Shown here in pieces: positions 11,207 through 61,923 of a stretch of 64,000 nt of DNA. The position numbers were made by a program, and so were the translations under genes. Source of the DNA: Sphingobacteriales bacterium 44-15 (GTDB lineage: Bacteria > Bacteroidota > Bacteroidia > Chitinophagales > Chitinophagaceae); contig MKWG01000002.1 in assembly GCA_001899685.1 (NCBI GenBank), positions 1 to 64,000 of the forward strand, read 5' to 3'. The notes under the pieces are model-generated. The model did not search any database, had not been told where the DNA came from, and saw nothing but the letters and a program-made list of their open reading frames with translations. Positions within the stretch are counted from its first letter, which is position 1. The number at the start of each line of letters is the position of its first letter.

Positions 11207-11222
11207 AGCAAGCCACATGCCA
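11207..11222 (-). promoter_or_regulatory. Sigma-54-type promoter of permease B
   Basis: Minus-strand TGGCATG-TGGC-TTGCT matches the sigma-54 consensus TGGCACG-N4-TTGCW with invariant GG at -24 and GC at -12 in correct spacing. It lies about 147 nt before the ATG. Of the five related promoters in the window this is the best match. Confidence 0.75.
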
Positions 11223-11272
11223 GCGTTCAACAAATTGAGAATCATGTTATTAAAAGCTTATTCCGCGACAAG

Positions 11273-11314
11273 GTGTGCGAAACCGAACGGGAAGTGTACG
11301 AAAGCGGACAGTAG
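11273..11314 (-). promoter_or_regulatory. Twin 21-bp operator (putative enhancer-binding-protein site) of permease B
   Basis: Plus-strand units GTGTGCGAAACCGAACGG and GTGTACGAAAGCGGACAG begin exactly 21 bp apart. Read towards the gene, the distal unit is the near-palindrome CTGTCCG-CTTT-CGTACAC. The pair starts 50 bp upstream of the -24 element, the usual location for activators of sigma-54 promoters. The same motif and distance recur at permeases D, E, G and I. Confidence 0.7.
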
Positions 11315-11342
11315 TATCTTCAGCCAGTCAGTGTCCGGGTAT

Positions 11343-12551
11343 TTAATGCAGGGATTTTAACGGCACAATAGCCAATTCACAGTGACGCTTATTTTCACCT
11401 TCAAAGCTTGCCGTATAAATTATATAGAGATCATCCCCGTGTTCCAGTACGCAGGGGTAGTGAGACAGTAGCGGGTTACCGGGGCCTGCTGATTGTACCT
11501 TGTAAATATTTGAAAAAGAAAATGGATTATTCCCGTCTTTTGATATCGCAATAGCAAGCACCTGCCTGTCCTCACTGCTTTGCGTCAGTTTTCCCGAAGG
11601 AACATAATTAAATACGATATACCCTCTACCATCGGTGAGCGTACCGGCGTAAAGCTTAGAAGGAATTGCCGTGAAATCATTTGACCCGGTCCTGATCCAG
11701 CTTTCGCCATAATCATTGCTGAAGAAAACATCAGGCTTATTACCAGGTCCATCCGCACGGGTAAAAGCATAAATATGTTTACCTTTTACAATAACAGTAG
11801 TTTCAGGGTATTGATCTTCCTGATATTCCTGTGGGAGCTTAACCACCCGCCATGATTTTTCTATACTATCGCCCGGGCTTATTAAAACCGCGGGTACCAG
11901 GGGAAGCTGCCCGCGAGAAGACGCAACTCTTCCGGACATTATCCAGTTACCGTTCTCCAGTTTAACAGGCGTACAATTCGGCAAAAACAAATCACCGGTT
12001 TCACCCAGCTCCTGCCAGCTTCTCTTTTTATCACTATACCTGTAAGTAGTCGTGTTTATGATACGGTCATGGCCTGTCATTTTTCCCACAAATGCATATA
12101 AATCGCCGTCAAAAGAAAGCATCTGTACCGGAACATAAAAAACACCCTTTTTCTCTTTATCCTCTGCAATCACTTCAGCCTTCGACCACGTTACTCCTCC
12201 ATCAAAGGATCTTCGTGCCCTGATGCAGGACTCATCCTCAATTTCTTCTTCAGGGCAGTTATACCACGCTGCAACCAATGCATCCTTATGATAAATTATC
12301 GCCGGGTCATGCAAAAATTTATATTCATCATTATCAGGCTCCACCAGGATATGCCTGATACCTTCAGGATAAACAAGCTGGTCAGCCTTTACCTTAATAC
12401 TTCCGGAAGCGTACAATGGCAAAGTGTCGCTTACAGTCATCTCCTTATTTTCGTATACCTGAGAAGCGTGTTTTGCATCAGGCTGACAACTTAAGTACAA
12501 TAAAGACAGTTCCAGGATACATAATACAGGAGCAAATGAAGGCATATACAA
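11343..12551 (-). CDS. BNR/Asp-box (sialidase-fold) lipoprotein
   Basis: 402 residues. A lipoprotein signal peptide with Cys22 (LLYLSC) predicts outer-membrane or periplasmic anchoring. Two clear Asp-box motifs (SFDGGVTWSKAE about residue 115, SNDYGESWIRTG about 283) indicate a sialidase-type beta-propeller. The protein is of exo-sialidase length, but I did not recognise an intact RIP motif with the usual arginine triad, so a non-sialidase glycan-binding or hydrolase role is possible. It lies on the same strand after permease C, beyond the intergenic repeat, and may be the last gene of the D-C transcription unit. An alternative start is the Met at 12545. Confidence 0.75.
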   Translation of the reverse strand: MYMPSFAPVLCILELSLLYLSCQPDAKHASQVYENKEMTVSDTLPLYASGSIKVKADQLVYPEGIRHILVEPDNDEYKFLHDPAIIYHKDALVAAWYNCPEEEIEDESCIRARRSFDGGVTWSKAEVIAEDKEKKGVFYVPVQMLSFDGDLYAFVGKMTGHDRIINTTTYRYSDKKRSWQELGETGDLFLPNCTPVKLENGNWIMSGRVASSRGQLPLVPAVLISPGDSIEKSWRVVKLPQEYQEDQYPETTVIVKGKHIYAFTRADGPGNKPDVFFSNDYGESWIRTGSNDFTAIPSKLYAGTLTDGRGYIVFNYVPSGKLTQSSEDRQVLAIAISKDGNNPFSFSNIYKVQSAGPGNPLLSHYPCVLEHGDDLYIIYTASFEGENKRHCELAIVPLKSLH

Positions 12552-12630
12552 GATATTTTAATGGAAATCATAAATATATTCCATTAGTAGGATACAGTTG
12601 TTCGATCAGATACTCATTTATAAGCTTAAA

Positions 12631-12873
12631 CCTCACCCTCTTTTCTCTCTCCCTGTCTGCCGACAGGCAGGCATGCAATAGAGAGGGACGGTACAACATA
12701 ACAATTCCAGGCTTTTGATTCTTCCATATCAACTATTGTACAAAACCAGGCTTTTTGTTTCTACACTTTCACATTCTCCCACTTCCCGGTTATTTTGAAT
12801 GCCAGCCCCTCCTCTTACATTTAATCAACAATCTTTAAAGTGAGGCGCCCGTGGAGAGGGACCGGGGGTGAGG
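12631..12873 (-). repeat. Permease-linked intergenic repeat, copy 2 (downstream of C)
   Basis: Begins CCTCACCCTC, carries the palindrome CCTGTCTGCCGACAGGCAGG (12652-12671) and the core TTCTTCCATATCAACTATTG (about 12720-12739) followed by ACAAAACCAGGCTTT. It ends GGGGGTGAGG one base before the stop codon of copy C. Unlike the other copies it is followed by the Asp-box lipoprotein instead of a permease. The 12552-12630 stretch holds nothing else I recognise. Confidence 0.78.
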
Positions 12874-12874
12874 T

Positions 12875-15244
12875 CTACTCTGTCCTCAGGCTCTTCACAG
12901 GATTATTGGTCGCTGCTTTAATGGATTGAAAGCTTACGGTGATAATTGTGATAAATAATGCTATCAATCCACTTAATACAAAAACACCGGCGCCAATGCT
13001 GATCCGGTAATCATAATCCTGCAACCAATGATATAAAAAATAAAAGGATACAGGCACAGCTATCAGGCAACTGATCAAAACCAATACAATAAAATCTTTT
13101 GACAATAACAGCCACACCTGCTGCACAGATGCTCCCAGTACTTTGCGAATGCCTATCTCTTTTGTGCGTTGTTCCGCCATATATGCCGCCAGGCCAAACA
13201 GGCCTAAACAGGAAATAAAAATGGCTAATACCGCAAAGAGGGCTGCAAGCTTTCCTATCAGTACTTCAAGATTAAATTTTGAAGCATATTGTTCATCCGA
13301 AAAAGCATAACTGTAGGGATATGCAGGCTCATATTTATTAAAAATGACAGTCAGCTGCTTAATAGCATCCTGCGTATGTATACCAGGCGACAGCCTGTAC
13401 ATTAAGTTGCCCTGGGGATCGGGCGAACATAAAAACATAGTAGGATCCGCGGTCTTGAACGGCGACAACATCAGCGCATCTTTCACCACACCTGCAATGG
13501 TCAATTGCCGGCCCTGCCAGTTGATCTTTTGCCCTAAAGGATTTTTTATGCGCAATCTTTTTATGGCTGCTTCATTAAATATTACGCTCGTAGTATCGTA
13601 AACACCTGAAAAATCTCTTCCTTCAGGTATACTCATTTCCATAGTTGTAAAATAATCACCGGATACGACTATGGTTCCCATCTCTACTGTTTCGCCGGGA
13701 TTTTTCCCGGGCCATTGGTCTACATCCGAATGCCACCAGACAGCCGTTGCAGGGCTTGTAGCCGTTGTCACAGACGATACAATACGCTTCTGTATCAATT
13801 CATTTTTTAATGCCGTAAATTTCTTATTCAGATCATCATTCATGTTGGTTACCATCAGCCTGTTCAGGCTATACCCTGTCGGTCTGCTCCTGGCATATTG
13901 TATTTGCTGGTAAATGATTACCGTACTTACGATCAAAGCAATGGAACAGCTAAACTGGATAATTACCAGCAATTTTCTTGATAAAGAGGACTTGCCGGAT
14001 GATATGGTTCCTTTTAAAACTGCCACAGGATTAAAAGAAGAAAGATAAAAGGCAGGCCGGCTGCCTGCAAGCAATGCCGTCAATAACAGGCAGCCCGTCA
14101 TGATCAACCAGAAATAAATATTATCAGCAGGCATTGTAATACTGTTTCCTGTTAATATGTTGAATGCAGGCAACGATACCCAGGCCATCAGCACTGCAAA
14201 AACAAAAGCTATAGCAGTAAGCAGGAATGCTTCCATCAGGAACTGCATTACAAGATCTTTTCTTTGTGAGCCGATCGCTTTTCGCACCCCCACCTCCCTT
14301 GCTCTTTTTTCTGAGCGTGCTGTTGTGAGATTGATGAAGTTAATACAGGCAATGACCAACACCAGCAAGCCGATGATAGAGAACATTCTCACATACAGCA
14401 GGAAGCCTTCAGTGTCTTTACCATTAATATAATTCGAATATAAATGCCAACGCTGCATAGGTTGAAGTGTAACATAAGAATTCATGGCATTTATATTGCC
14501 TTCTTCGGTATGCTCTATATCCCTGATCTTTGGAGCGATCTGTGCATAATCCACACCCGGCTGTAATTTCACGAAGATCTGCAGATTATTATTGCCATAG
14601 CTGCTTAACCCGTCAGTCCTGAATTGTGGGTTTACAGCATACAGGTACGTGCTGGGCACTATATAATTAAAGCTGAAGCTTGCATTGTCCGGCACATCCT
14701 GTATAATGCCGGTTACTTTAAGGTTATTTGCATTATCAAACCGGACAGTCTTATTCATAGCATCGTCGTTACCAAAAAGTGATTTTGCCAAAGACTGTGT
14801 GATCACAATGGAATAAGGGTCTTTAAACGCTGTGCCCGCATTGCCCTCTATAAACGGGTATTGAAAAATTTTGAAGAAATCCGGCCCGGAAATAGCACCG
14901 TTCACATATAGTTTTTTTTCGCCGGCTATCAGCCCGTGATGGTTTGACCAATCACTTTCAGCAACATATTCTATTTCCGGGACCTGGATACGCAATGCTT
15001 CTGCCAGTTTTAATGATGTGGTTTGAAAAGTAAGTGTGTCGCCATTGCCGTTGAAGTTTCGCTGTACCCTGTACACCGACTGGTAACCAGGCAGGAATTT
15101 GTCGAATGAATATTGATGGTATACCCATAAGCCGATCAATAATGCAACCGCCATCCCGATAGCAAGCCCCATAATATTCAGCACGCTGTACCCGATCGCC
15201 CGGGTGATATTCCGCCAGGCTGTTTTGAAATAGTTTTTTAACAT
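12875..15244 (-). CDS. Two-module FtsX/MacB-like ABC permease (copy C)
   Basis: 789 residues; TM1 about 19-42, large periplasmic domain, TM2-4 near 280-405, TM5 near 425, second periplasmic domain, and three C-terminal TMs. FtsX signatures are EKRAREVGVRKAIGSQ and EQRTKEIGIRKVLGAS; it ends NPVKSLRTE. No ATPase domain. Its N-terminus (TRAIGYSVLNIMGLAIGM) differs most from its neighbours. It is the second gene of the D-C pair, after repeat copy 3, and lacks its own sigma-54-like promoter. Confidence 0.93.
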   Translation of the reverse strand: MLKNYFKTAWRNITRAIGYSVLNIMGLAIGMAVALLIGLWVYHQYSFDKFLPGYQSVYRVQRNFNGNGDTLTFQTTSLKLAEALRIQVPEIEYVAESDWSNHHGLIAGEKKLYVNGAISGPDFFKIFQYPFIEGNAGTAFKDPYSIVITQSLAKSLFGNDDAMNKTVRFDNANNLKVTGIIQDVPDNASFSFNYIVPSTYLYAVNPQFRTDGLSSYGNNNLQIFVKLQPGVDYAQIAPKIRDIEHTEEGNINAMNSYVTLQPMQRWHLYSNYINGKDTEGFLLYVRMFSIIGLLVLVIACINFINLTTARSEKRAREVGVRKAIGSQRKDLVMQFLMEAFLLTAIAFVFAVLMAWVSLPAFNILTGNSITMPADNIYFWLIMTGCLLLTALLAGSRPAFYLSSFNPVAVLKGTISSGKSSLSRKLLVIIQFSCSIALIVSTVIIYQQIQYARSRPTGYSLNRLMVTNMNDDLNKKFTALKNELIQKRIVSSVTTATSPATAVWWHSDVDQWPGKNPGETVEMGTIVVSGDYFTTMEMSIPEGRDFSGVYDTTSVIFNEAAIKRLRIKNPLGQKINWQGRQLTIAGVVKDALMLSPFKTADPTMFLCSPDPQGNLMYRLSPGIHTQDAIKQLTVIFNKYEPAYPYSYAFSDEQYASKFNLEVLIGKLAALFAVLAIFISCLGLFGLAAYMAEQRTKEIGIRKVLGASVQQVWLLLSKDFIVLVLISCLIAVPVSFYFLYHWLQDYDYRISIGAGVFVLSGLIALFITIITVSFQSIKAATNNPVKSLRTE

Positions 15245-15261
15245 TTGAAATTTGAATTTAG

Positions 15262-15559
15262 ATTACCCTCTTTCCCTCTCTTCTTGCAAAGCCTGCCTGT
15301 CCGGTAGACAGGGGGAGGGAGCGGTACTACAGAACATATCTAATCTTTAAGTTCTTCCACATCAACATTTGAATAAATCCCGACAAGCCGCTTTACATTT
15401 TACAGGCTTTCACACTTTTCACATTTTCACATTTTTATATTTTACATCTCCTCTATTTTCTGGTTGCCCGCCTTAGCAGGTTGCCCCTCTTACCTTTAAT
15501 TCATGCGGCCCGGTGTTTAGGCGCCCCTCTCCACCGCGTGGAAGGGGCCAGGGGTGAGG
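15262..15559 (-). repeat. Permease-linked intergenic repeat, copy 3 (D-C)
   Basis: Related to copies 1 and 2 but diverged and longer. It has pyrimidine-rich ends, a degenerate palindrome (CCTGCCTGTCCGGTAGACAG), the core start AGTTCTTCCACATCAACATT, then a run of CACATTTT-type low-complexity sequence (about 15405-15445). The terminal AGGGGTGAGG abuts the stop codon of copy D. Confidence 0.72.
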
Positions 15560-17965
15560 TTACTCCGTCCTCAGGCTCTTCACCGGATTCATCATCGCTG
15601 CCCGCACTGCTTTTACGGCAACGGTCATGAACGCTATTAATAACCCCAGCAAACCAGCTATAACAAATACCCACCATCCGATATCAACGCGATAAGCAAA
15701 ATCCTGCAGCCATTTATTCATCATCACCCAGGCAATTGGCGTGGCGATCAGCATGGCTACAACAACCAGCTTCAGCAGGTCTTTTGCAAGCAACAGCACA
15801 ATACCACTTATACTGCTGCCCAGCACTTTGCGGATGCCGATCTCTTTACGGCGCTGCTCTGCCGTAAAGGTTATTAATCCAAACAAGCCCAGGCATGCAA
15901 TAATAATTGCCAGCACGGTAAACGTCATCAACAGCTTGCCCTGCATTTTTTCCGCACTGTACTGGCGGGAAAAATTTTCATCCAGAAAGCTATATTCAAA
16001 CGGGTTGACCGCATCAAACTGCCGGAAAACCGACCCGATATACTGCACTCCCGCGCTCATATTTTTACTGTTGAGCCGCACATATATATTATCCTTATCA
16101 TTGTCCTCAGGGGGCAGCTTTACGATTAAAGGTGCAATGACATGCTGCAGCGAATAAAAATTAAAATCCTTTATTACGCCCGCCACCTCATATATTTTCG
16201 GGTTACCTGCTGAGTCGGTTCCCATCCGGATCTTTTTTCCTAACGGTGTTTTCCAGCCTTCTTTCCTGGCAAGCGCTTCGTTGATCAATACTACTCTATC
16301 TTTATCAGTAGTCATTTCTTTAGAGAAATTCCTGCCGGCTGCCATCTTCACCTGCATGGTAGTAATAAAATCTTCATCCGCCAGCAATACCGTAGCCATC
16401 CTGTCCTTATCACCCATTCTGCCGTCCTTTTCTTCCGCCCTGTAATCTCTACCACCGAGATCATTATTGCCGATAGGATTGCCGGCAGCAGCTACGCTCT
16501 CTATAAACGGGCTTTTTAATAATGCAGCTTTTATCAGCGCTGTTTTATGCCGGGCATCCTGGTTACTTAAATGGAATGTCATCACCTGGTCTTTATTAAA
16601 GCCCAGGTCCTTGTTGCTGACGTACTGTAGTTGCCGGTAAATAATAAAGGAACCTGCGATCATGGCAATAGTGATCACAAACTGGAAGACCACCAGCGAC
16701 TGCCGGAACCTTATATTGCTATCATGTCTTCCTATCAATCCTTTCAGGGAAGGGATCAGCTTAAAGCCGGAAAGAAAGAAAGCAGGGTAAATACCGCTCA
16801 GGCATCCTGTTACCACCGCAAACCCCGTGCACAGCAGTACGGTTTGCACCGTTCCCGGCTGCCATATGCCTGTATCCTTACCGATAAAATGGAGGAACCA
16901 GGGCATGGACAGTTTTACCAGTGCCAGGGCAATCAGTGAAGCTATAAAAGTGATGAGCACAGACTCAGCTAAGAACATGACAGCTAATTGCAGACGGCTT
17001 GAACCGTTTACTTTGCGCACACCGATCTCTTTTACCCGTAATACCGACCGCGCAGTAGACAGATTCATATAGTTGATAGCAGCAATGATCAGTATCAGCA
17101 CGGCAATCAGTGAAAATGCAATAACATAACGCATGCTGCCATTGGGCGCTATTTCATATTCAAGGTTGGAATGAAGATGTATGGCAGTAAGCGGCTGCAG
17201 TTCCAACCGGTAGTTCACTTTGCCGGCCACCTTTTCCATAGCCGGCTTTAAGTATGTGTCATAAAAAGCAGGCAGCTTGGCATTCAGCTTTTCAATATCA
17301 GCAGCATTCTGCAGCAGAAGGTAGGTATAGAGATAAGAGTTCCCCCACTGGCTGTTATCGGTTGCGGGCATGCGGCGGATAGCGCTGAATGTAAAATGGG
17401 AATTGGCAGGAACATCATAAATTACGCCGGTGATAAGATTATTGTTATCGCTGCCGAAGGAAATCATTTTATTCATTGCTGCTGCCGGATCACCGAAAAT
17501 TTTACGGGCCAATGTTTGTGTAACAACAATAGAATGAGGCTCGTCAAGCGCATTATCATTACCACATAAAAAGGTATAGCTGAACACCCGGAAAAAGCTG
17601 CTGTCGGCAAAAAAAATATCATCCGCTTTGATGTGCTTTTCGCTATACGTAATGGTGCCTCCGCCTTCCGCATCCAACCGTACCGCTTCACGAACTTCAG
17701 GAAATGTATTTTTGAACGCCTGCGCAAATGGTGCAGAAGTCAATGGCAGATCAAAGCTGCCTCCACCCCAGGTTGCATGTTGCGCAATACGGTAAATACG
17801 ACCAGCATTGGCATGGTAACGGTCGTAGCTTAATTCATTGCTCACATACAACATGATGAGACAGCAGGCTGCCAGCCCGAGGGAGAGCCCGCCGATATTG
17901 ATGACAGAAAATGCCTTATTCCGTGTAAGATTTCGCCAGGCTGTTTTGAAATAATTTCTTAACAT
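15560..17965 (-). CDS. Two-module FtsX/MacB-like ABC permease (copy D)
   Basis: 801 residues; TM1 about 19-42, periplasmic domain, TM2-4 near 295-410, TM5 near 432-455, second periplasmic domain, three C-terminal TMs. FtsX signatures are LRVKEIGVRKVNGSS and EQRRKEIGIRKVLGSS; the end is NPVKSLRTE. No ATPase domain. First gene of the D-C pair; a sigma-54-like element (18057-18072) and twin operators (18122-18163) lie upstream. AAATTTCAA precedes the ATG in place of a Shine-Dalgarno sequence. Confidence 0.93.
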   Translation of the reverse strand: MLRNYFKTAWRNLTRNKAFSVINIGGLSLGLAACCLIMLYVSNELSYDRYHANAGRIYRIAQHATWGGGSFDLPLTSAPFAQAFKNTFPEVREAVRLDAEGGGTITYSEKHIKADDIFFADSSFFRVFSYTFLCGNDNALDEPHSIVVTQTLARKIFGDPAAAMNKMISFGSDNNNLITGVIYDVPANSHFTFSAIRRMPATDNSQWGNSYLYTYLLLQNAADIEKLNAKLPAFYDTYLKPAMEKVAGKVNYRLELQPLTAIHLHSNLEYEIAPNGSMRYVIAFSLIAVLILIIAAINYMNLSTARSVLRVKEIGVRKVNGSSRLQLAVMFLAESVLITFIASLIALALVKLSMPWFLHFIGKDTGIWQPGTVQTVLLCTGFAVVTGCLSGIYPAFFLSGFKLIPSLKGLIGRHDSNIRFRQSLVVFQFVITIAMIAGSFIIYRQLQYVSNKDLGFNKDQVMTFHLSNQDARHKTALIKAALLKSPFIESVAAAGNPIGNNDLGGRDYRAEEKDGRMGDKDRMATVLLADEDFITTMQVKMAAGRNFSKEMTTDKDRVVLINEALARKEGWKTPLGKKIRMGTDSAGNPKIYEVAGVIKDFNFYSLQHVIAPLIVKLPPEDNDKDNIYVRLNSKNMSAGVQYIGSVFRQFDAVNPFEYSFLDENFSRQYSAEKMQGKLLMTFTVLAIIIACLGLFGLITFTAEQRRKEIGIRKVLGSSISGIVLLLAKDLLKLVVVAMLIATPIAWVMMNKWLQDFAYRVDIGWWVFVIAGLLGLLIAFMTVAVKAVRAAMMNPVKSLRTE

Positions 17966-18056: not shown

Positions 18057-18072
18057 GTCAATAGATATGCCA
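18057..18072 (-). promoter_or_regulatory. Sigma-54-like promoter of permease D
   Basis: Minus-strand TGGCATA-TCTA-TTGAC. The -24 block matches the consensus fully; at -12 the usual GC is GA. It lies 92 nt before the ATG, with the operators 49 bp upstream. Confidence 0.55.
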
Positions 18073-18121
18073 TAGGAGAATATACTGATAATTAACCAGT
18101 TGTGGTTTATCACACCGACAT

Positions 18122-18163
18122 ACTGTACGGAATTGAACGTGCACTGTACGAAAACGGACAATA
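18122..18163 (-). promoter_or_regulatory. Twin 21-bp operator of permease D
   Basis: Plus-strand units ACTGTACGGAATTGAACGTG and ACTGTACGAAAACGGACAAT begin exactly 21 bp apart. Towards the gene the distal unit reads TTGTCCG-TTTT-CGTACAGT, the same near-palindrome as at permease B. Confidence 0.68.
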
Positions 18164-18320: not shown

Positions 18321-19331
18321 TCACTCATGATAACACGCTCCCAGCTCATTATTCTTTGTGTTGACAGCAGCATTGTACAGATCCATTGACCATATAGCGC
18401 CGGTACGGATGTCGGCAATATACATATCATATCCTCCTTTGCTTCCTGACCGGGTAGACGATAATAAAATATATTCCGGATCAACCGGGCAAGCATCAGA
18501 GTAGTCACCAGAAGGTTCATTAAAGGGCAGGGCAACGGGAGTTCTTGCATTTAAGTAACCCATATACAATTGGTCGTGATGATTGGCGAAGGAATACCAG
18601 CGGGTAAAAATGAAGCTGCTGTCGTTTATTGCAATGGGATAATAAGCATATATACCCGGGGCTGCAAAAACTGTTTTTACATTTTTATCTGCAATGTTAT
18701 AGCTGTAAATGGAAGATATATCATTTGTTTCCGCTGCATACAGGATATATTGATCATGATCGGCAAAATAAGGCATGGAAGCCTCTTGCTGCGCAACAAT
18801 ATATTGGGCAATGATATTTCCCAGAGTATCCATCCGCATTAGTTTGCCCTTACTTTTAAAAATGACGGATGCCCCGTCTGCAGAAAATTTTGGATCTTCA
18901 TTCCTGCTTTTAGTTAAAGCCTTCGTTAAGTTAACGGGTTGAGCAGTATCCCCGATCTCCCATATAAAAATATCCCACTGATCAGTTTCAGCGTCAACAC
19001 CCATAAATACGATCTTTTTCCCATCGGGCGAAAAATGGGCATTCATAGGATTACTGATACGCCATTGCGCGCTTAACACCGTATTGGTGTTGGTTGCAAA
19101 ATCATACAGCATGATCCTGGAATCATTACATTCATAGCACGAATAACTATGATAAACAAGCCTGCCACTGAGGGCAGGCTTGTTTTGTAAAGTATCGGCA
19201 GGTGGTTGATCCCCGGAATTTGCTTTCGTAGCTTTACTGCAGCTCATCGCTATCAAACCTGTCAGCAATAAACCGGCAGAGACCTTTCTGCCCATTAGTA
19301 AGGCTATGCGGTAATACTTCAGTATTATCAT
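18321..19331 (-). CDS. PD40/TolB-like beta-propeller lipoprotein of the SusCD operon
   Basis: 336 residues with a lipoprotein signal peptide (GLIAMSCSKA, Cys31). Repeats of the TolB/PD40 type follow, for example SPDGKKIVFMG (about 102-112) and SADGASVIFKS (about 149-159), predicting a six-bladed propeller on the outer surface or in the periplasm. Its ATG overlaps the SusD stop codon (ATGA), so it is translationally coupled to the SusC/SusD pair and probably acts with it in substrate capture. No catalytic motif was seen. Confidence 0.78.
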   Translation of the reverse strand: MIILKYYRIALLMGRKVSAGLLLTGLIAMSCSKATKANSGDQPPADTLQNKPALSGRLVYHSYSCYECNDSRIMLYDFATNTNTVLSAQWRISNPMNAHFSPDGKKIVFMGVDAETDQWDIFIWEIGDTAQPVNLTKALTKSRNEDPKFSADGASVIFKSKGKLMRMDTLGNIIAQYIVAQQEASMPYFADHDQYILYAAETNDISSIYSYNIADKNVKTVFAAPGIYAYYPIAINDSSFIFTRWYSFANHHDQLYMGYLNARTPVALPFNEPSGDYSDACPVDPEYILLSSTRSGSKGGYDMYIADIRTGAIWSMDLYNAAVNTKNNELGACYHE

Positions 19332-20881: not shown

Positions 20882-20900
20882 ATTTGCTGTTTTATTCAGG

Positions 20901-25717: not shown

Positions 25718-26311
25718 TTATAAGCTCCCCGCGGCGCCCAGTATAGCCGCCAGCAACGGTAGCATTCCTCTTTGCAAAAAGGCCTTTCGCAACAGTTGTA
25801 TCGCCTTTCCTTTCTGGTTTAATACTGTTTTAGTGGAAATATTAAGCCGCAATGCAGCCTGATCGGTGGTAAGCCGTTGGAAAAATAATAACTTGAACAC
25901 CTCAGCACATTGAGGCGGGAGGTTTTCTATCTCCCGGTAAAGCGCTGCCAGCACTTCTGCATTTATAATATCAGTATCATCAGGGGAGATAGCCTGCTCT
26001 GACAGGTATACTATTTCATCATGCGAGCGCTCGTGGCGTTTTTGCTTTCTCAGGTGATCAATGCATGCATTCCGGGTAGCGGTATACAAAAATGATCTTA
26101 TTTCCCCGATAGTTTGAAAATCTTCACGCTTCTTCAATAATTTAAGAAAGCTTTCCACTACTATATCTTCTGCCTCCTGCCGCTGATGTGCTATAGTTTC
26201 CGCGTAATAACATAATGGTCGGTAAAATATATCATAAAGCTGCCTCGTCGCCGCGGCATCCTGCCGGCGGAACTTTTCAATAATATTATGGCTGTCTGAA
26301 GCAGATATCAT
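25718..26311 (-). CDS. ECF-type RNA polymerase sigma-70 factor
   Basis: About 197 residues from the ATG at 26311 (MISASDSHN); the longer frame from 26347 adds 12 residues unlike this family. Region 2 is at about 15-85 (LYDIFYRPLCYYAE, EAEDIVVESFLKLLKK, SFLYTATRNACIDHLRK) and region 4 at about 125-180 (LPPQCAEVFKLLFFQ, TDQAALRLNISTKTVLNQ). It matches the Bacteroidota ECF group paired with FecR and SusC. It probably directs transcription of the downstream FecR-SusC-SusD-PD40 genes when the matching substrate is present. Confidence 0.95.
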   Translation of the reverse strand: MISASDSHNIIEKFRRQDAAATRQLYDIFYRPLCYYAETIAHQRQEAEDIVVESFLKLLKKREDFQTIGEIRSFLYTATRNACIDHLRKQKRHERSHDEIVYLSEQAISPDDTDIINAEVLAALYREIENLPPQCAEVFKLLFFQRLTTDQAALRLNISTKTVLNQKGKAIQLLRKAFLQRGMLPLLAAILGAAGSL

Positions 26312-53835: not shown

Positions 53836-53858
53836 TTGAGATTTGAATTTAAGATTTA

Positions 53859-54083
53859 CCTCTCCCTCTTATCCCTCTCCATGCAATGGAGAGGGACGGT
53901 ACTGAATTACAAACGTTTAGTTCTTCCACATCAACTATTGCACAAAACCAGGCTTTTCGTTCCACACTTCCACATTCACCCATTTCCCGGTTGCCTTAAA
54001 CGTCAGCCTCTCTCTTACATTTAATCAACACTCTTTAAAGTGAGGCACCCCTCTCCACTCCGTGGAGAGGGGCTGGGGTGAGG
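53859..54083 (-). repeat. Permease-linked intergenic repeat, copy 4 (G-F)
   Basis: Pyrimidine-rich start (CCTCTCCCTCTTATCCCTCT), core TTCTTCCACATCAACTATTG followed by ACAAAACCAGGCTTT (about 53922-53957), and a CCCCTCTCCACTCCGTGGAG hairpin end with GGGGTGAGG abutting the stop codon of copy G. It lacks the CTGTCTGCCGACAGG palindrome of copies 1 and 2. Confidence 0.78.
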
Positions 54084-56489
54084 TCATTCCGTTCTCAATG
54101 CCTTCACCGGGTTCGACACCGCTGCAGCAATAGCCTTATATGCCACAGACAACCATGCAATGCCCAGGGATATCAACAGTGCCCCGATAAAAAACCCCGC
54201 GCTGAGCTGTATGCGATAATGAAAGTCGTTCAGCCAGGCGGTCATAAAATACCATGCAGCAGGGAATGCTATGAAAAAAGAAATAACAATAAGCACTGTA
54301 AATTCTTTGGAAAACATATACACTATGCTGCTCACTGATGCGCCCAGCACTTTCCGTATGCCCACTTCTTTTGTTTTTTGCACGGCCATAAAAGATACCA
54401 GCCCATACAGGCCCAGGCAGGCAATGAAAACAGCCAGCCCGGCAAAAATTTTATACAGCAGTGCCAGTTGACTGTCCTGCTTATAAAACTCATTGATGCT
54501 CTCATCAAGAAAAGATGCGGTGTAAGCATATTCAGGGAAATGAGCATTGTATACCTTTTCCACCTCAGCCTGCGTCTTTGCAAGATTAGCAGAATGAAGC
54601 TTAAGCCCCACCCGCTCATATACCGGCTTATACGGCACGATGAACATCGGCTTGACTTCCGAGCGCAGGGAGCTTGCTTTAAAATCTTTTACTACACCTG
54701 TAATGAGATTCCAGTTGCCGCCACCAAGACGCAATGTTTTACCAACGGCATCCGCGGGATCCTGCATGCCCAGCATGTGCAGCATTGCTTCGTTGATCAG
54801 CCCCGCCCTGGTAGTATCACTCGGTTCATAGTTCCTGCCGGCAGCCAGTTGCAGCCCGAAAGTGTTGAGATAACCGGTATCGGCAAACTTGAGATGGACC
54901 TGGAACTTTTCATCAGGGCGATGGTCAAAAGCAAAATTGGTAGACCAGTTGTTGTCAGAAGCGGGTGGATCAGAGGTAAACGAAATATTCTCCACGCCGG
55001 GAATTTTTTTAAGGTCTTTCCCAAATGCATACTGCTTTGACATGCTGCTGCTGTCTATGCTGATATTGAGCATCAGCACAGCGTCTTTATTGAACCCAAG
55101 ATCGGCATTGCGGATAAAATCCATCTGGCTGACGGCAACGATCGTTCCGATGATCAGCATCTGGGATATGGCAAATTGCAGCACTACAAGGCCTCGGCGC
55201 AGGCTGATGCCGCCCACTTTTGCCGACATCACTTTATTCTTTAACGCCGTGATCGGATTGAAGCCTGACATGCTTAGAGAAGGATAAATACCGGCAAGGA
55301 AAGTTACTGCCAGCCCTATGAGCGCCAGCAATAAAATATTTGTAACGGAGAAAAGATGGATCTCTTCCTGCATGGAAACGATATGCTTCACGAACGGCAC
55401 GCTGAGCCGTGCAATGATCAGCGCCAGTATAACGGCAACAGCTACCAGCAGTCCTGTTTCGCCCATGATCTGCCAGAACAATTTCCTCCGGTTGCTGCCC
55501 AATACTTTCCGGATACCCATTTCTTTAGACCTGGTGATGGATTGCGCGGTGGACAAATTGATAAAATTGATGCAGGCCATCAGCAGGATGAAAACACCTA
55601 TTAATGACAGCGTCCATAAGGTTGTCTTGCCGGTACGGTGATCGCCGAATGTTTCAAAGCGGGTATCAAAATGTATATCCGGTAACGGCTGCAGGAAGTT
55701 TGTCTTACCCAGCCCATTTCCTTTTCTCTTTTTATAATGTTCCTCTGCAAATGCAATAAGCTGTTTATTGACAGCCCCGGGCAACTGACCGGCAGGTAAC
55801 AATGCGTAGATCTGGTGGGTGCTCGAAGTATTGCCCCAGTCATCATTATAATTGTAGAGGTCAGGATTGCGCTTCACCGTTTCCATGGATACCGCCACCT
55901 TCACGGGATAGTCTGTATTTACCGGCAGGTTGTCAATAATACCGCTCACCTTTAAAGACAGTTGATTATCCAGCTTCAGCAATTTACCGACAGGTGAAAC
56001 CCCTTTACCAAAATATTTTTCAGCCGTTTCTTTTGACAACACTACAGCACCCGGCTGTGCAAGCGCTTCGGGTGAACCGGACAACCAGTGAAAATTAAAA
56101 ATGGAGAAGAACCCCGGGTCTGCAAAAAATATTCCAACCTTTTCAATTATCTTTTTATCATTACCTCCCGGCATAGGCACTGTCACCTGACTCCCGTATG
56201 CACCATGCAGGGAACCAAATGTTGCCTGCGGGAATTTTACGCGAAGCGCTTCCAGGGCAGGCACGGGAATACCGGCATTGTAGGTAACCCCGTCTTCAAA
56301 CCTGTCGGAGGTGACCACACGATATATATTGTTATAATTCTTTTGAAAGGTATCGTAGCTCAGCTCATACCGCACCACGATAAAAAGCAGCATTGCCGCC
56401 GCTATACCAATCGCCAGCCCGGTAATATTGATAAAGGAAAAGCTCTTATTACGCCATAAATTCCTCCATCCTGTTTTCAGGTTCGTCAT
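54084..56489 (-). CDS. Two-module FtsX/MacB-like ABC permease (copy G)
   Basis: 801 residues; starts MTNLKTGWRNLWRNKSFS without the NYFK of its neighbours. TM1 about 18-38, periplasmic domain, TM2-4 near 295-410, TM5 near 435, second periplasmic domain, three C-terminal TMs. FtsX signatures are TRSKEMGIRKVLGSN and VQKTKEVGIRKVLGAS; end NPVKALRTE. No ATPase domain. First gene of the G-F pair, with a sigma-54-like promoter only 28 nt before the ATG and a single perfect palindromic operator further upstream. Confidence 0.93.
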   Translation of the reverse strand: MTNLKTGWRNLWRNKSFSFINITGLAIGIAAAMLLFIVVRYELSYDTFQKNYNNIYRVVTSDRFEDGVTYNAGIPVPALEALRVKFPQATFGSLHGAYGSQVTVPMPGGNDKKIIEKVGIFFADPGFFSIFNFHWLSGSPEALAQPGAVVLSKETAEKYFGKGVSPVGKLLKLDNQLSLKVSGIIDNLPVNTDYPVKVAVSMETVKRNPDLYNYNDDWGNTSSTHQIYALLPAGQLPGAVNKQLIAFAEEHYKKRKGNGLGKTNFLQPLPDIHFDTRFETFGDHRTGKTTLWTLSLIGVFILLMACINFINLSTAQSITRSKEMGIRKVLGSNRRKLFWQIMGETGLLVAVAVILALIIARLSVPFVKHIVSMQEEIHLFSVTNILLLALIGLAVTFLAGIYPSLSMSGFNPITALKNKVMSAKVGGISLRRGLVVLQFAISQMLIIGTIVAVSQMDFIRNADLGFNKDAVLMLNISIDSSSMSKQYAFGKDLKKIPGVENISFTSDPPASDNNWSTNFAFDHRPDEKFQVHLKFADTGYLNTFGLQLAAGRNYEPSDTTRAGLINEAMLHMLGMQDPADAVGKTLRLGGGNWNLITGVVKDFKASSLRSEVKPMFIVPYKPVYERVGLKLHSANLAKTQAEVEKVYNAHFPEYAYTASFLDESINEFYKQDSQLALLYKIFAGLAVFIACLGLYGLVSFMAVQKTKEVGIRKVLGASVSSIVYMFSKEFTVLIVISFFIAFPAAWYFMTAWLNDFHYRIQLSAGFFIGALLISLGIAWLSVAYKAIAAAVSNPVKALRTE

Positions 56490-56516: not shown

Positions 56517-56532
56517 CACAACAGCCATGCCA
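56517..56532 (-). promoter_or_regulatory. Sigma-54-like promoter of permease G
   Basis: Minus-strand TGGCATG-GCTG-TTGTG: the -24 block is identical to that of permease B, the -12 block has GT instead of GC. It lies 28 nt before the ATG and 51 bp below the operator. Confidence 0.58.
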
Positions 56533-56583: not shown

Positions 56584-56601
56584 CTGTCCGAATACGGACA
56601 G
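56584..56601. promoter_or_regulatory. Perfect palindromic operator of permease G
   Basis: CTGTCCGAATACGGACAG has two exact 7-bp arms around a 4-bp centre. It defines the half-site (CTGTCCG) of the operator family found at the other permeases. No second unit 21 bp away could be found here. Confidence 0.68.
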
Positions 56602-56658
56602 TAAGTTGTTCATCAGCGAACATAGGACTGCTTTCCATTTTCAAATTAGCTCATTTTC

Positions 56659-56681: not shown

Positions 56682-59099
56682 TCATTCGCTCCTCAATGCT
56701 TTTACCGGGTTTACCACCGCCGCTTTAAAACATTGTGCAGCAATCAACACAGATGCGGTTATAAAAACAAACATGCATACCATCAAATAAGGAAGTGCAT
56801 TTTGCTGTATCCTGTACGCATAATTTTCAAGCCACTTATTGGTGATAATATATGCAAGCGGGCAGGCAATAATGGATGCCATAAATATCAGCAACGCATA
56901 ATCTTTTATAAACAACAATAAAATATTTTTTACATCAGCGCCAAGCACTTTGCGCATTGCAATCTCTTTATTACGTTTAGCGAGTGTAAATGCCACTACT
57001 CCAAATATGCCGAGAAAAACAATAACAAGATTTAATGCTGTGGCAATATCAGTTGCCGTCTTTAATTGTAGTTCAGACTTATATAGTGATTGAAACTGGT
57101 TGTCCATAAAAGTATATTCAAAAGGCGCTTCCGGTAACAGTTCCTCCCATTTCTTTTTTATTGCTTCAACTGCTTCGGAAAAATTATCAGTACCTATTTT
57201 TACATTCATGTAACGATAAGCCAATGCATCATCCATGTTAACAATTACCACCGGCTCTATGCTTTGTTGCAAACTTGAATAATTATAATCCCCGACAATG
57301 CCGGCAACAGTAAGCGGCGGGTTTCCGACGGGTTGTTTTATTTGCCTGCCTACAGCAAATGATGCGGAAGAAAATCCCAATGCTTTAGCAGCCGATTCAT
57401 TCAACACAATCTGGTTGGGAATAAATGAACCGGATTGGCTGAAGAATGAACCTGCAATCATTTTTAACCCGAAAGTTTTTGCATATGCTTCATCGGCTGT
57501 AAAAGCCGTAAGCACAAGTGGGTTATTATTTTTATCAGTCTGCGGGAACAAAGTGATTTGCCCGGGCGGTTTTCTTGTTGGTATTTCAAATGATAATGAC
57601 GCAGCCTTTACCTCGGGCATCCGTAATAATTGCTGCCTTACATCTTTCATGCGCTGTACGCCAACAGCATCCCATCGTTTTGGATAAGCTTCAACGATAA
57701 GCAATTGCTCTTTGTTATACCCAAGGTCTTTTGCAAAGATATACGACATCTGCTTTGAAACATTTAACGCGCCGATGAAAACAATAATCGCCAGACTGAA
57801 TTGAACAATCAGCAATATCTTTCTTAATACCAATCCTCCTTTTGCCGAATCAATTTTCCCTTTTACAGCATTCACCGTATTAGATGCGCTCAGCACAAAC
57901 GCAGGATAAATTCCCGCAATAAAACCAATAAATAAAAGGAAAGCGATGAATGCAGCTGTGTTTGTTGCATCAAAATGAATGATAGAGACTAACGTTGTAT
58001 TTAATACTTCGGAGAACAAATTCCGCAGCAGTTCATAAAGCGCAGCAGAAATAATGGCAGCAACAAAAGTCAGCAACAACGCTTCTGAAATAAATTGTAA
58101 TACAAGCTGTGTGCGAACGCTGCCGAAAACTTTCCGCAACCCAATTTCTTTTAAGCGATACGATGATGTACCGATATTGATGTTTACAAAATTGATAATG
58201 GCCATTACTAAAATAAATGCAGCAATGAATGAAAGCGCCGTTATCATTTTTTGCACAGCACTGTTATTCTCTTTCAAATAATAATCTTTAACCGGTGCTA
58301 ATTCCACTTCAAGGTTATCCTGCGTGTTTTTATCGGTATATTTGGCAAGTATCTGCTTAAACGGCTGCGCCATTTGCTGCGGTGTAACGCCGGGCTTTAA
58401 CTGAAGCCTGCCCACTTCATAAGCGCCGCCATTCCATCCTTCTGCTGGGTCGCCGCCGCCGTAATAACTATTTCCGATTGTTGGTACAAATATGTTGTAA
58501 TCAGTCCCTATTACTCCTGTTGCGGAATTTTTCGGAATATCTTTCAGTACGGCAGAAACTGTATATTGCTGTGTTATTCCACTCCTTGTAGTCAACATAC
58601 TGAACGATTTTCCAATCGCATCTTTTGCTCCAAAGAATTTTTGTGCAATGTTTTCTGTAATAACCGCCGAACTTATATTTGTAAACGCTTTGTTTTTATC
58701 GCCATACAAAACAGGAAAGCCATACATTGTTACCAATGTTGTATCACCAATAGCAATATCTTCTTTAAAATGATTATTGCCCACCGATACAACATTTGAA
58801 ACAGGATTAAAGCGATAATAATTTTCAACGAGGGTTGGATATTCCTCTTTCATTGCTTTGGCCAAAGGGCCAAGAGTGGTTATATCCATACCCATTTCTT
58901 TCACTTTCCATTTGCTCTTAATGATGTACTGATCGCTAACGTTCTTAATATGGCTGTTCACACTTTTCTGGCTTACAATATAAACGCCGATGATCATAGA
59001 AAAAGTAATACCAATCGCAAGGCAAAAAATATTGATCACTGAAAACAGTTTATGCCTCGTGAGATGGCGGACAGCTATTTTGAAATAGTTTTTAAACAT
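56682..59099 (-). CDS. Two-module FtsX/MacB-like ABC permease (copy H, divergent)
   Basis: 805 residues with the shared layout: TM1 about 19-42, periplasmic domain, TM2-4 near 285-400, TM5 near 425, second periplasmic domain, three C-terminal TMs. It is the most divergent copy. The usual ACINFMNL is AIINFVNINI, the FtsX signatures are YRLKEIGLRKVFGSV and KRNKEIAMRKVLGAD, and ACLGLFGL is VFLGIFGV. It is also visibly richer in A/T codons than copies A-G. It ends NPVKALRSE. Second gene of the I-H pair, after repeat copy 5. No ATPase domain. Confidence 0.92.
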   Translation of the reverse strand: MFKNYFKIAVRHLTRHKLFSVINIFCLAIGITFSMIIGVYIVSQKSVNSHIKNVSDQYIIKSKWKVKEMGMDITTLGPLAKAMKEEYPTLVENYYRFNPVSNVVSVGNNHFKEDIAIGDTTLVTMYGFPVLYGDKNKAFTNISSAVITENIAQKFFGAKDAIGKSFSMLTTRSGITQQYTVSAVLKDIPKNSATGVIGTDYNIFVPTIGNSYYGGGDPAEGWNGGAYEVGRLQLKPGVTPQQMAQPFKQILAKYTDKNTQDNLEVELAPVKDYYLKENNSAVQKMITALSFIAAFILVMAIINFVNINIGTSSYRLKEIGLRKVFGSVRTQLVLQFISEALLLTFVAAIISAALYELLRNLFSEVLNTTLVSIIHFDATNTAAFIAFLLFIGFIAGIYPAFVLSASNTVNAVKGKIDSAKGGLVLRKILLIVQFSLAIIVFIGALNVSKQMSYIFAKDLGYNKEQLLIVEAYPKRWDAVGVQRMKDVRQQLLRMPEVKAASLSFEIPTRKPPGQITLFPQTDKNNNPLVLTAFTADEAYAKTFGLKMIAGSFFSQSGSFIPNQIVLNESAAKALGFSSASFAVGRQIKQPVGNPPLTVAGIVGDYNYSSLQQSIEPVVIVNMDDALAYRYMNVKIGTDNFSEAVEAIKKKWEELLPEAPFEYTFMDNQFQSLYKSELQLKTATDIATALNLVIVFLGIFGVVAFTLAKRNKEIAMRKVLGADVKNILLLFIKDYALLIFMASIIACPLAYIITNKWLENYAYRIQQNALPYLMVCMFVFITASVLIAAQCFKAAVVNPVKALRSE

Positions 59100-59160
59100 T
59101 TAAAAATTGAAATTTAAGATTTGAAATCGCTTTGGTGCCGCAGGTTTTACATTTTCAAGC

Positions 59161-59348
59161 CTATTTTCTCATCTTCTTCTCCCTCTCCTTATCCCGAACG
59201 TTCGGAAGCGAGGGAGCGGTACTACAGAATATATCCAATCTTCAGGTTCTTTCACACTTGAATGCCAGGTTGCCCCTCTCGCCTTTCTCTCGGCCAGTCA
59301 TGAACTCAGGCACTCCTCTCCGCTGTGCGGAGAGGGGTGGGGGTGAGG
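59161..59348 (-). repeat. Permease-linked intergenic repeat, copy 5 (I-H), shortened
   Basis: Has the pyrimidine-rich start (CTTCTTCTCCCTCTCCTTAT), GCGGTACTACAGAATATATC, a deletion in the core (only GGTTCTTTCACACTTGAATG remains) and the terminal CCTCTCCGCTGTGCGGAGAG hairpin with GGGGGTGAGG abutting the stop codon of copy I. Confidence 0.7.
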
Positions 59349-61727
59349 TCATTCTGCCCTCAAACTCCTTACCGGATTCGCCATCGCCGCTTTTACAGAT
59401 TGAAAGCTGATAGTAATTAAGGCAATCAGTATGGCTGAAATACCAGCTACTAAAAATATCCACCAACTTATCTCAATCCTGTATTGATAATGCTGCAACC
59501 AGCTATGCATTATCCACCATGCAATCGGAAATGCAATGAGCCATGCAACAGCAACCAGCTTTATAAAATCTTTTGATAGTAATGCAGTGATGCCTGTAAC
59601 ACTTGCACCCAATACTTTACGAACACCAATTTCTTTTGTTCTGCGTTCTGCTGTATAGGCAGATAATCCAAACAAACCCAAACAGGAAATAAAAATGGCA
59701 AGCGATGCAAAAATTTTTGCAAGGCTGCTGATAAGTGTTTCCAGAGAAAACATATTATTAAACTGATCGTCTACAAACTGGTAAGTAAAGGGGTATGCAG
59801 GGTTATCTTTCTTTAATACATTTTGTATTTGCGTTAATGCTGTTTCTACATTCGCCTGTTTTTTTAAACGCACATACATTTTTGTAGTGTTTTCCGGACT
59901 GGAATAAAAAAACATTACAGGGTCAGGCTTGCCATACATATCACCATACACATAATCATTTACTACGCCCACTACTTCCGCGCGCATGCCACTGTTATCA
60001 CCTTCAAAGTGCAATGATTTTCCGATTGCACTGCCCTTACCCATCAGCCTTTCCAATGTTTGCGTAATTACTATATAAATAGTTTTATTATTAATGGCGC
60101 TGTCTGTTTCCTGCAAATCTCTTCCTTCCAAAAGTTTTATTCCTGATGTATTAAAAAAACCAGGTGTTACATATCGTTGTGATATTAATATTTGTGCGGC
60201 GGTTGCTTTGCCGTCCCATGTTAAGCCGCCGGTATTATTACCGCCATATAATGTTGTATGATCTGCAAGCGTCGCGCTTTCTACTGAACCTGTTTGCAAA
60301 AGATCCTGTTTAATCGCATCATAATTTTTTGCCATATTGCCCGTCATATCTATCTGCAGTAAGTTATTTTTATTAAAGCCGAGATCCCTGCTTTTTACAT
60401 GTTGTATTTGCTGATAAATGATGATAACGCTTATAATTAGAACAATGGAAATAGTGAATTGCAGCACCACTAATCCTTTGCGTATAAAGGCTGCGCTGCT
60501 GTTTTTTAATTGCATCCCTTTTAATACAAATACAGGATTGAAAGAGGATAAGTACAGTGAAGGATAGCTGGCAGCAACTAACCCGCAAATAAATGTTATT
60601 GCAAGTAATGCTATAATGTGAACCGGATTGTTTAAACCTAAAGAAAGATGTTTTACTACCAAAGTATTAAATGCAGGTAAAACCAATGCAATAATAATTA
60701 CAGCGAGTATTGTTGCGATAAATGATAATAGCAATGCTTCTCCAATAAATTGCGCAACAAGATTTTTTCGTGCAGCGCCCAGCACTTTTTTTACGCCAAC
60801 TTCTTTTGCGCGTTTGGTGCTTCTTGCTGTCGCCATGTTCATAAAGTTGATACAGGCTATCAGCAAAATGATCCATGCAATGGCAGAAAATAAACGCACA
60901 TAAGTAATGCCGCCACCACCGGTTTGCACGCCGTTATCAAATTGGTCGCGCAAGTGCCAGTCGTTCATGCTAAACAAAAATGGCCGGGCAATAGAAGTAG
61001 GTTCTTTTTGCTGAATAAAGTTGTATAGCAATTTATTTACTGATGCAGCACTTACACCGGGCTTTAATTCAATGTACGTGCTCAATGAATTGTTTCCCCA
61101 TTTATGCAGGTAATCATTTGCATCGTAAAAAACTTGAAAAGGAGCTACCCATTCTAATTGCATTGAAGAATTTCCAGGAATATCTTTCAGTACGCCGGTA
61201 ACAACATAATCGTGATCATTGTTAATTCTCACAGTTTTACCGATCACATTTTCATCATTGCCAAAAAACTTCTTTGATGTTTTTTCTGTTATAACAATTG
61301 AATACAATTGCCTGAAAGCCGTTGCAGCATTACCCTGCACAAACGGCAATGTAAACATGCTGAACAATGAAGGCTCAGCATATTTGCCTGATGCGTACAT
61401 TGATCTATCGCCAATGCTAAAAAGAAATGGCATAGCACCTTCTGATGTTCTGCATGTGTTTGCAATACCCGGGATTTCTGCCTGCATTGCCGGCGCTAAC
61501 AATCCCGGTGTTGAATAAAATGTTGCTGTATAGGTATCATACTTCTGATTTTCTCTTACAAAATACAATTGATCTTTTTTTGTATTGAACTGATCATAGC
61601 TCACTTCATCTTCCACCCATAAAAAAATTAAACCGGCACAGGCAATACCAATTGCCAAACCAAAAATGTTGAGAAAACTGTAGCTTTTATTTTTCCAGAG
61701 ATTCCTGCTGATTGTTTTAAATGACAT
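59349..61727 (-). CDS. Two-module FtsX/MacB-like ABC permease (copy I)
   Basis: 792 residues; start MSFKTISRNLWKNKSYSF. TM1 about 17-38, periplasmic domain, TM2-4 near 280-400, TM5 near 425-445, second periplasmic domain, three C-terminal TMs. FtsX signatures are KRAKEVGVKKVLGAA and ERRTKEIGVRKVLGAS; end NPVRSLRAE. A/T-rich codon use, like H and J. First gene of the I-H pair, with a sigma-54-like promoter at 61815 and twin operators at 61882. No ATPase domain. Confidence 0.93.
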   Translation of the reverse strand: MSFKTISRNLWKNKSYSFLNIFGLAIGIACAGLIFLWVEDEVSYDQFNTKKDQLYFVRENQKYDTYTATFYSTPGLLAPAMQAEIPGIANTCRTSEGAMPFLFSIGDRSMYASGKYAEPSLFSMFTLPFVQGNAATAFRQLYSIVITEKTSKKFFGNDENVIGKTVRINNDHDYVVTGVLKDIPGNSSMQLEWVAPFQVFYDANDYLHKWGNNSLSTYIELKPGVSAASVNKLLYNFIQQKEPTSIARPFLFSMNDWHLRDQFDNGVQTGGGGITYVRLFSAIAWIILLIACINFMNMATARSTKRAKEVGVKKVLGAARKNLVAQFIGEALLLSFIATILAVIIIALVLPAFNTLVVKHLSLGLNNPVHIIALLAITFICGLVAASYPSLYLSSFNPVFVLKGMQLKNSSAAFIRKGLVVLQFTISIVLIISVIIIYQQIQHVKSRDLGFNKNNLLQIDMTGNMAKNYDAIKQDLLQTGSVESATLADHTTLYGGNNTGGLTWDGKATAAQILISQRYVTPGFFNTSGIKLLEGRDLQETDSAINNKTIYIVITQTLERLMGKGSAIGKSLHFEGDNSGMRAEVVGVVNDYVYGDMYGKPDPVMFFYSSPENTTKMYVRLKKQANVETALTQIQNVLKKDNPAYPFTYQFVDDQFNNMFSLETLISSLAKIFASLAIFISCLGLFGLSAYTAERRTKEIGVRKVLGASVTGITALLSKDFIKLVAVAWLIAFPIAWWIMHSWLQHYQYRIEISWWIFLVAGISAILIALITISFQSVKAAMANPVRSLRAE

Positions 61728-61814
61728 CTTTAATGGTTTATTGTTTCGGGTTTCAAGACGTGCCCGCTGACGGCTTATGGCTCATAGCTGATTACTGAAA
61801 GCCCATAGCCTGGT

Positions 61815-61830
61815 ACCAATAGTTATACCA
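61815..61830 (-). promoter_or_regulatory. Weak sigma-54-like promoter of permease I
   Basis: Minus-strand TGGTATA-ACTA-TTGGT keeps TGG and TTG in the right spacing, but -24 is TGGTA and -12 ends GG. It lies 88 nt before the ATG, at the same distance from its operators as at the other loci. The leader (about 61770-61812) carries CTATGGGCT/AGCTATGAGCC words also found before permease E. Confidence 0.45.
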
Positions 61831-61881
61831 ACATACTAAGTAGCTTGGAATCAACAACTTACCGTCATGCATAGTATCAGA

Positions 61882-61923
61882 GGTGTACGAAAAAGGACAG
61901 CTATTGCACGATAACGGACAGGC
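61882..61923 (-). promoter_or_regulatory. Twin 21-bp operator of permease I
   Basis: Plus-strand units GGTGTACGAAAAAGGACAGC and ATTGCACGATAACGGACAGG start exactly 21 bp apart; towards the gene the distal unit reads CTGTCCG-TTAT-CGTGCA. The 61924-62112 remainder holds a CATCCCGGAGTTGCG word after copy J and nothing else recognised. Confidence 0.68.

Follow-up and report, generated by a model that had tools for sequence, protein, structure and literature searches.

Permeases of the COG0577 class are enriched for sigma-54 promoters in Bacteroidia according to a computational study, in which this is called first evidence (PMC12316311, 2025). That study and the present work meet in the permease class and the sigma factor, which were linked there from promoter matrices, and its accessible part names no activator, operator, IHF-like site or adaptor-TolC regulon. 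In Flavobacterium psychrophilum, sigma-54 transcription starts have been mapped to genes that serve protein quality control, gliding and envelope stress, and the word permease is absent from the main text of that report as far as it is accessible (PMC9723704). No account of the activator, the operator or the regulon described below was found in the open-licence literature; the link between sigma-54 and the permease class is therefore already known, while these three appear to be new. The first-pass annotation, which knew of no description of this regulon, is qualified in this one point by the enrichment reported in PMC12316311.

Regulons of the NtrBC, ZraSR and AtoSC type resemble the present one in a regulator with receiver, AAA+ and Fis-type helix-turn-helix (HTH) domains, a tandem operator, a -24/-12 promoter and, at part of the promoters, a possible IHF-like site. 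They differ in that the regulon here appears to comprise a whole tripartite exporter with many permeases, and the GAFTGA loop of the NtrC family is mostly GAFTDA; none of the 25 NCBIfam matches listed for the regulator reaches its cut-off. In comparison with MacAB-TolC, the adaptor resembles MacA, scoring above the TIGR01730 cut-off (121.6 vs 94.9), the permease resembles the membrane part of MacB and a TolC-type channel is present, whereas the permease here is duplicated (about 800 aa) and lacks an ATPase domain, the ATPase is a separate gene, and there are many permeases. The best NCBIfam matches are ADOP (TIGR03434) for the permease and, from the darobactin exporter DarBCD, DarD for the ATPase and DarC for the adaptor. 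All stay below the curated cut-offs: permease B for ADOP (319.5 vs 622.3 bits) and for DarB (160.5 vs 700), the ATPase for DarD (302.8 vs 375) and the adaptor for DarC (165.2 vs 450). In Bce-type peptide-sensing modules, FtsX-type permeases go with a kinase that has two transmembrane (TM) helices and hardly any periplasmic loop. The kinase described here likewise has two TM helices and a very short loop and is linked to FtsX-type permeases, and by analogy we infer that it may work as a Bce-type kinase does, although its partner regulator is a sigma-54 enhancer-binding protein (EBP) and not of the OmpR type.

The window, meaning the whole stretch of DNA analysed, is the first 64 kb of contig C2 in a genome (G000) of 6.0 Mb in 46 contigs. 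Ten permeases, each about 800 aa long and with stretches of MacB_PCD and FtsX type, lie in it, the last of them (J) running across the window end; these we take to be of the COG0577 class, and 14 of the same kind are present in the whole genome. No ATPase domain (ABC_tran) was found in the seven window permeases searched against Pfam, and the ATPase-permease fusion of MacB proper was absent from the permeases scanned. Five of the window permeases, B, D, E, G and I, bear a promoter of the kind described here (Table 1). These are very probably sigma-54 promoters of one dispersed regulon, the predicted products of which would form a MacAB-TolC-like export machine. Directly 3′ of B, D, G and I, and in the same orientation, come permeases A, C, F and H, which have no operator; the intergenic distances are 248-315 nt, so that each pair could be one transcription unit. 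Permeases J, K, L and M sit farther along the contig, after the adaptor and ATPase genes. The permease array also holds an ECF sigma factor (25718-26347), a FecR anti-sigma factor (24372-25562) and a SusC/SusD pair (20901-24185 and 19331-21082). A related, repeat-like block, CCTCACCCC...GGAGAGGGG, opens the gaps upstream of A, C, F and H and, in a shortened form, the gap upstream of a BNR gene (gaps 8396-8675, 12552-12874, 15245-15559, 53836-54083 and 59100-59348); it was not seen where the gaps of B, D, E, G and I begin. Several upstream pairs among A, C, F, H, K and L have common stretches at 66-93% identity.

Table 1. Permease genes and promoter elements of the window, with regulon members and the candidate activator elsewhere in the genome. 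Positions without a contig are those of the window; R1 and R2 are the promoter models described in the text.
Feature	Position	Strand	Remarks
Permease A	5984-8395	-	downstream of B, operator-less
Permease B	8676-11060	-	MacB_PCD and FtsX, 794 aa, without ATPase domain
-24/-12 sigma-54-like element of B	11207-11222	-	TGGCATGTGGCTTGCT
IHF-like site of B	11228-11240	-	8/9 positions, 18 nt before -24 box
Tandem operator of B	11273-11290 and 11294-11311	-	18-bp units, period 21; R1 E 1.7e-15
Permease C	12875-15244	-	downstream of D, operator-less
Permease D	15560-17965	-	801 aa
-24/-12 element of D	18057-18072	-	TGGCATATCTATTGAC
IHF-like site of D, weak	18078-18090	-	7/9, 18 nt before -24 box
Tandem operator of D	18123-18140 and 18144-18161	-	period 21; R1 E 2.2e-12
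Tandem operator of E	28059-28077 and 28081-28099	+	variant TGTATC-N5 units, period 22; R2 E 1.9e-13
IHF-like site of E	28133-28145	+	8/9, 19 nt before -24 box
-24/-12 element of E, weak	28152-28167	+	AGGCATCATTTTAGTT
Permease E	28310-30697	+	795 aa
Permease F	51457-53835	-	downstream of G, operator-less
Permease G	54084-56489	-	801 aa
-24/-12 element of G	56517-56532	-	TGGCATGGCTGTTGTG
Operator of G	56584-56601 (perfect) and 56606-56623 (degenerate)	-	period 22; R1 E 3.6e-9
Permease H	56682-59099	-	downstream of I, operator-less
Permease I	59349-61727	-	792 aa
-24/-12 element of I, weak	61815-61830	-	TGGTATAACTATTGGT
Tandem operator of I	61883-61900 and 61904-61921	-	period 21; R1 E 2.8e-11
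HlyD/MacA-like adaptor, ABC ATPase next	C2, about 75.5 kb		regulon promoter in front
Permease with regulon promoter	C11		outside the window
Second ABC ATPase, then TolC-type protein	C37, promoter at 301 kb		OEP match 3.9e-49
136-aa secreted-looking protein	G000:C37:286943-287353 (L259 6943-7353)		behind the promoter at C37:287 kb
Candidate activator, NtrC-family response regulator	G000:C6:136462-137817		kinase adjoins; receiver, AAA+, Fis-type HTH

The sites of all five permeases were found where the first-pass annotation had placed them, and the same periods were measured for the doubled units of B, D and I (21 bp) and of E (22 bp). The operator of G, which had been described as single, has a degenerate second unit 22 bp upstream of the perfect one. 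The form CTGTCCG-N4-CGKACAG, given for all five, fails at E, where the units read CTGTATC-N5-CGTACAG and CTGTATC-N5-CGAACTG. Among the -24/-12 elements B fits best and matches the full consensus, as had been noted; E and I are indeed weak at -12 (TTAG and TTGG), yet they are also off at -24, with AGGCA at E, which departs at the first base, and TGGTA at I. From the end of the proximal unit to the -24 box there are 51 nt at B and D, 52 at G and 53 at E and I; units, periods and spacings were confirmed by a PWM scan trained on these same sites and by a score set by hand after the sites had been seen. Tandem sites two helical turns apart upstream of the -24 box are the layout of NtrC-type activators, and the present sites follow it with a period of 21-22 bp and a spacing of 50-54 nt.

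Within the window, the pattern of the first-pass annotation with up to three mismatches has 28 matches, strands counted separately, vs 3.1 ± 2.1 in 100 shuffles, and these include unrelated ones (8441, 12653). Scanned for the -24/-12 element by itself, the window has so many matches that this search was discarded as stand-alone evidence. A genome-wide scan for the palindrome, which the annotation had proposed, showed no over-representation of the word. The exact core TGTNCGN4CGNACA has three sites in the genome vs six for a reversed control pattern, and with two mismatches 123 sites per strand vs 160; since the control counts are at least as high, single units are not over-represented as words, and the three exact sites all precede permeases (B, D and G). 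What is over-represented, and gives the signal, is the whole promoter, with its two units, their spacing and the -24/-12 element. One candidate member, C27:138751, 5 kb away from an EBP gene, was dropped as it has no real second unit.

Two sequence-only promoter models were built from alignments containing no sequence of this genome: R1 from 27 permease promoters (A1) and R2 from 38 adaptor promoters (A2). The 27 were drawn from 35, omitting L122 (a near copy), L165 (within a gene, and probably a false operator) and six Pontibacter, Rufibacter or Pedobacter promoters with divergent operators; the 38 were picked by hand from 55 so as to thin near copies. A sigma-54 promoter carries GG and GC about 10 bp apart in its -24/-12 element, and the sites fit this form. 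The GG of the -24 element is invariant in both alignments, which is partly built in, as the training promoters were chosen for a -24 match at 50-54 nt, and the -12 element is looser, mostly TTG or TTT. Together the models identify at least nine promoters in the 6.0-Mb genome, each with E ≤ 1.8e-8 in at least one model, and the first unrelated sites follow at E of about 0.16-0.5, other weak matches being opposite-strand echoes. Scoring covered 150 of 1756 and 150 of 2047 candidates from the first look, so that weak members of the regulon may have escaped.

The nine promoters precede the five window permeases, the permease on C11, the adaptor-ATPase genes, the second ATPase gene with the TolC-type gene, and the gene for a small secreted protein. 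Beyond the window, R1 gave E values of 5.4e-9 (C11), 5.9e-8 (adaptor), 7.0e-8 (C37:287505) and 3.5e-7 (C37:301250), and R2 gave 1.8e-18 (adaptor), 1.8e-9 (C37:301231), 1.8e-8 (C37:287506) and 4.7e-7 (C11). On the window permeases, R2 scored B at 1.3e-6, D at 9.6e-6 and G at 1.4e-4, besides its strong match at E. In the whole-genome scans R1 misses E, and I is not among the matches listed for R2. The regulon thus includes the permeases from which it was first read, and is wider, extending to the adaptor, two ATPases, the TolC-type protein and the small secreted protein; the predicted parts of a MacAB-TolC-like system, namely adaptor, FtsX/MacB permease, ATPase and TolC channel, are all encoded in the genome. 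The 136-aa protein begins with a signal-like stretch and matches a filamin-type domain weakly, below the Pfam cut-off, and relatives of it stand behind three promoter matches in other genomes.

The genome has one rpoN gene and five strong EBP genes, on contigs C3, C6, C15, C17 and C27. The C6 regulator is the likely activator, as judged from gene neighbourhood and co-occurrence, and the comparative data support the proposal of the first-pass annotation that a dispersed regulon of ATPase-less permeases answers to one EBP encoded outside the window, with C6 as the candidate. In the relative G015 the adaptor gene and an ortholog (74%) of the C6 EBP gene have the tandem operator between them, and the kinase gene comes after the EBP gene. 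The neighbourhoods of the best 80 of 582 relatives of the C6 EBP, all in named loci, contain an adaptor gene in 62, an ATPase-like gene in 62, a permease gene in 69 and a kinase gene in 78 of the 80, with neighbours labelled by best BLAST match, weak ATPase matches included and some contigs short. These loci span Chitinophagaceae, Mucilaginibacter, Pedobacter, Pontibacter, Rufibacter, Cesiribacter and one Flavobacteriaceae record, and the closest named-genome matches to the regulator are from Chitinophagaceae (Terrimonas, Niastella). Neither in this genome nor in Terrimonas NS-102 (L138) are pump genes found beside the EBP-kinase pair. The expectation that the activator gene would adjoin the same palindrome holds in many relatives and fails in G000, where the two are unlinked and the 600 nt at the start of the regulator gene have no strong operator (best score 22.3).

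Across 38 genomes including G000, the promoter is present in all 15 carriers of the regulator (E ≤ 1e-120) and in one of 23 non-carriers (15/0 vs 1/22; Fisher 1e-9, uncorrected for kinship). The exception, G010, is 88% complete and has a promoter match with no regulator at the cut-off. At E ≤ 1e-150 the regulator is matched in 34 of 296 genomes of the phylum, down to 52% identity, a set that may include paralogs. The GAFTGA loop reads GAFTDA in 67, GAYTDA in 10 and GSFTGA in 3 of the 80 orthologs, and two of the other four EBPs of this genome also vary at this position (GAFTNA, GSFTSA). That a different EBP, on C3, C15, C17 or C27, drives real sigma-54 promoters here is improbable. There are five strong EBP genes to choose from, and the neighbourhood and co-occurrence on which C6 was assigned were tested for the C6 EBP alone, but most of the 80 loci have the C6-type regulator gene next to genes for adaptor, ATPase and permeases, the operator in many of these lies between regulator and adaptor, in front of the latter, regulator and promoter agree in 37 of the 38 genomes, and 74 of the 80 orthologs keep the recognition helix TRTALYRRL without change. 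As for the kinase, hydropathy alone predicts two TM segments separated by 2-11 residues in each of the 79 orthologs, four of which have a further hydrophobic window; the kinase therefore seems to be without a periplasmic sensor domain.

The layout was also measured in the loci fetched, by first choosing the operator with the highest score and then, at any distance in the next 150 nt, the -24/-12 match that scored best. Strong operators (score ≥ 30) precede 40 of 185 permeases, 62 of 64 adaptors and 4 of 686 other genes, and the best -24/-12 match falls at 50-54 nt for 38 of the 40, 56 of the 62 and one of the four. Since the permease loci of the relatives were fetched by matches to the tandem pattern (the adaptor loci nearly all by regulator homology), the operator rate is biased and the spacing is not. 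A separate reading of 65 regulator-adjacent regions found an operator in 63, with the -24 box at 51-54 nt in 54 of these; E-type units (spacers 5,5), the form of most adaptor promoters elsewhere, occur in 44 of the 63. It is very unlikely that the permeases are driven by sigma-A housekeeping promoters of the TAnnTTTG type with the palindrome as a repressor operator: palindromes near -85/-106 could also be sites for a repressor acting from a distance, but a -24/-12 match stands 50-54 nt past 94 of the 102 strong permease and adaptor operators, and the operator is linked to an EBP gene. In Pontibacter and Rufibacter (L205, L206, L209, L213, L216, L217) the operator arms are shifted (GTGCGAAATCGCAC-like), with the same period and spacing, and the recognition helix there is still TRTALYRRL or nearly so.

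The tandem pattern alone has 92 matches in the 38 genomes vs 42 for the reversed control, so that about half are due to chance; several of the places fetched with it are unrelated to permeases. R2 at E ≤ 1e-4 gave 90 matches in 15 relatives, of which G015 had contributed one training sequence, its adaptor match thus not being held out, and others possibly overlap with the named training genomes. By exact coordinates, the first gene behind the 90 matches is a permease in 55 cases, a second-type ATPase in 13, an adaptor in 12, a small secreted protein in three and another gene in seven; relocation by own score (68 of the 90 relocated) gave 54, 13, 12, 3 and 7, with one match lacking a gene. In two relatives (L314, L317) the first gene behind the promoter encodes a 91-98 aa protein (MYEFQSICRKKIA...), and in two (L290, L303) a 502-aa secreted-looking protein lies more than 500 nt behind a match with a poor -24/-12 element, which may be a false match.

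Least probable of all is that the upstream likeness is a relic of duplication, an ancestral block copied along with permease paralogs and now without function: the permeases are paralogs in one array, the B and D upstream regions match over 51 bp (74.5%) and some other upstream pairs share blocks, but pairwise identity among the six permeases of this genome that have an operator is only 25-39%, unrelated genes (adaptor, second ATPase with TolC, small secreted protein) have the same promoter in front, and E differs in its operator letters from an 86% relative in G004 while the layout is kept. On a tree of 82 permeases, the operator state needs at least 20 changes, close to the 22.3 found on average after shuffling, and 76 of 500 shuffles were as low; the operator is thus not tied to a single permease lineage, a result weakened in that the set is enriched for operators.

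The spacer between operator and -24 box was scored against the IHF consensus WATCAANNNNTTR, which has nine specified positions. In other genomes, 15 of the 32 permease promoters and 15 of the 55 adaptor promoters (30 of 87 overall) have a match at 8-9 positions, vs 6.8% and 7.5% of shuffled spacers, and of the matches at seven or more positions 14 of 26 (permease) and 22 of 35 (adaptor) start 18-19 nt before the -24 box. Three of seven G000 promoters have a match at eight positions, and the site is poor at G and I. An IHF-like site between operator and -24 element is suggested, with a moderate match count, and the genome has two genes of the HU/IHF family.

If these are sigma-54 promoters of one regulon, the following course of events can be proposed. 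The membrane kinase, with its two TM helices and almost no periplasmic loop, would phosphorylate the C6 regulator, which would bind the two operator units two helical turns apart; the DNA may be bent by an IHF/HU-type protein, and at the -24/-12 box the activator would open the sigma-54 form of RNA polymerase. The adaptor, the ATPases and the channel in the outer membrane would in this way be common to the many permeases that lack an ATPase domain. Judging from the families involved, the likeliest guess for what is exported or sensed is envelope-active peptides or antibiotics. More tentatively, and by analogy with Bce modules, it is conceivable, if rather doubtful, that one pump serves many permeases, the kinase reading the state of the permeases in the membrane and switching on both the shared parts and exchangeable orphan permeases, each with its own substrate.

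The regulon names probable partners for lone permeases of about 800 aa, namely an adaptor, two ATPases and a TolC-type channel, as well as a probable activator and its kinase, and the promoter model finds members in whole genomes. Both the function of the permeases and the target of a Bacteroidota EBP become directly testable. If one pump does serve many permeases, the orphan duplicated permeases of Bacteroidota would gain their missing partners.
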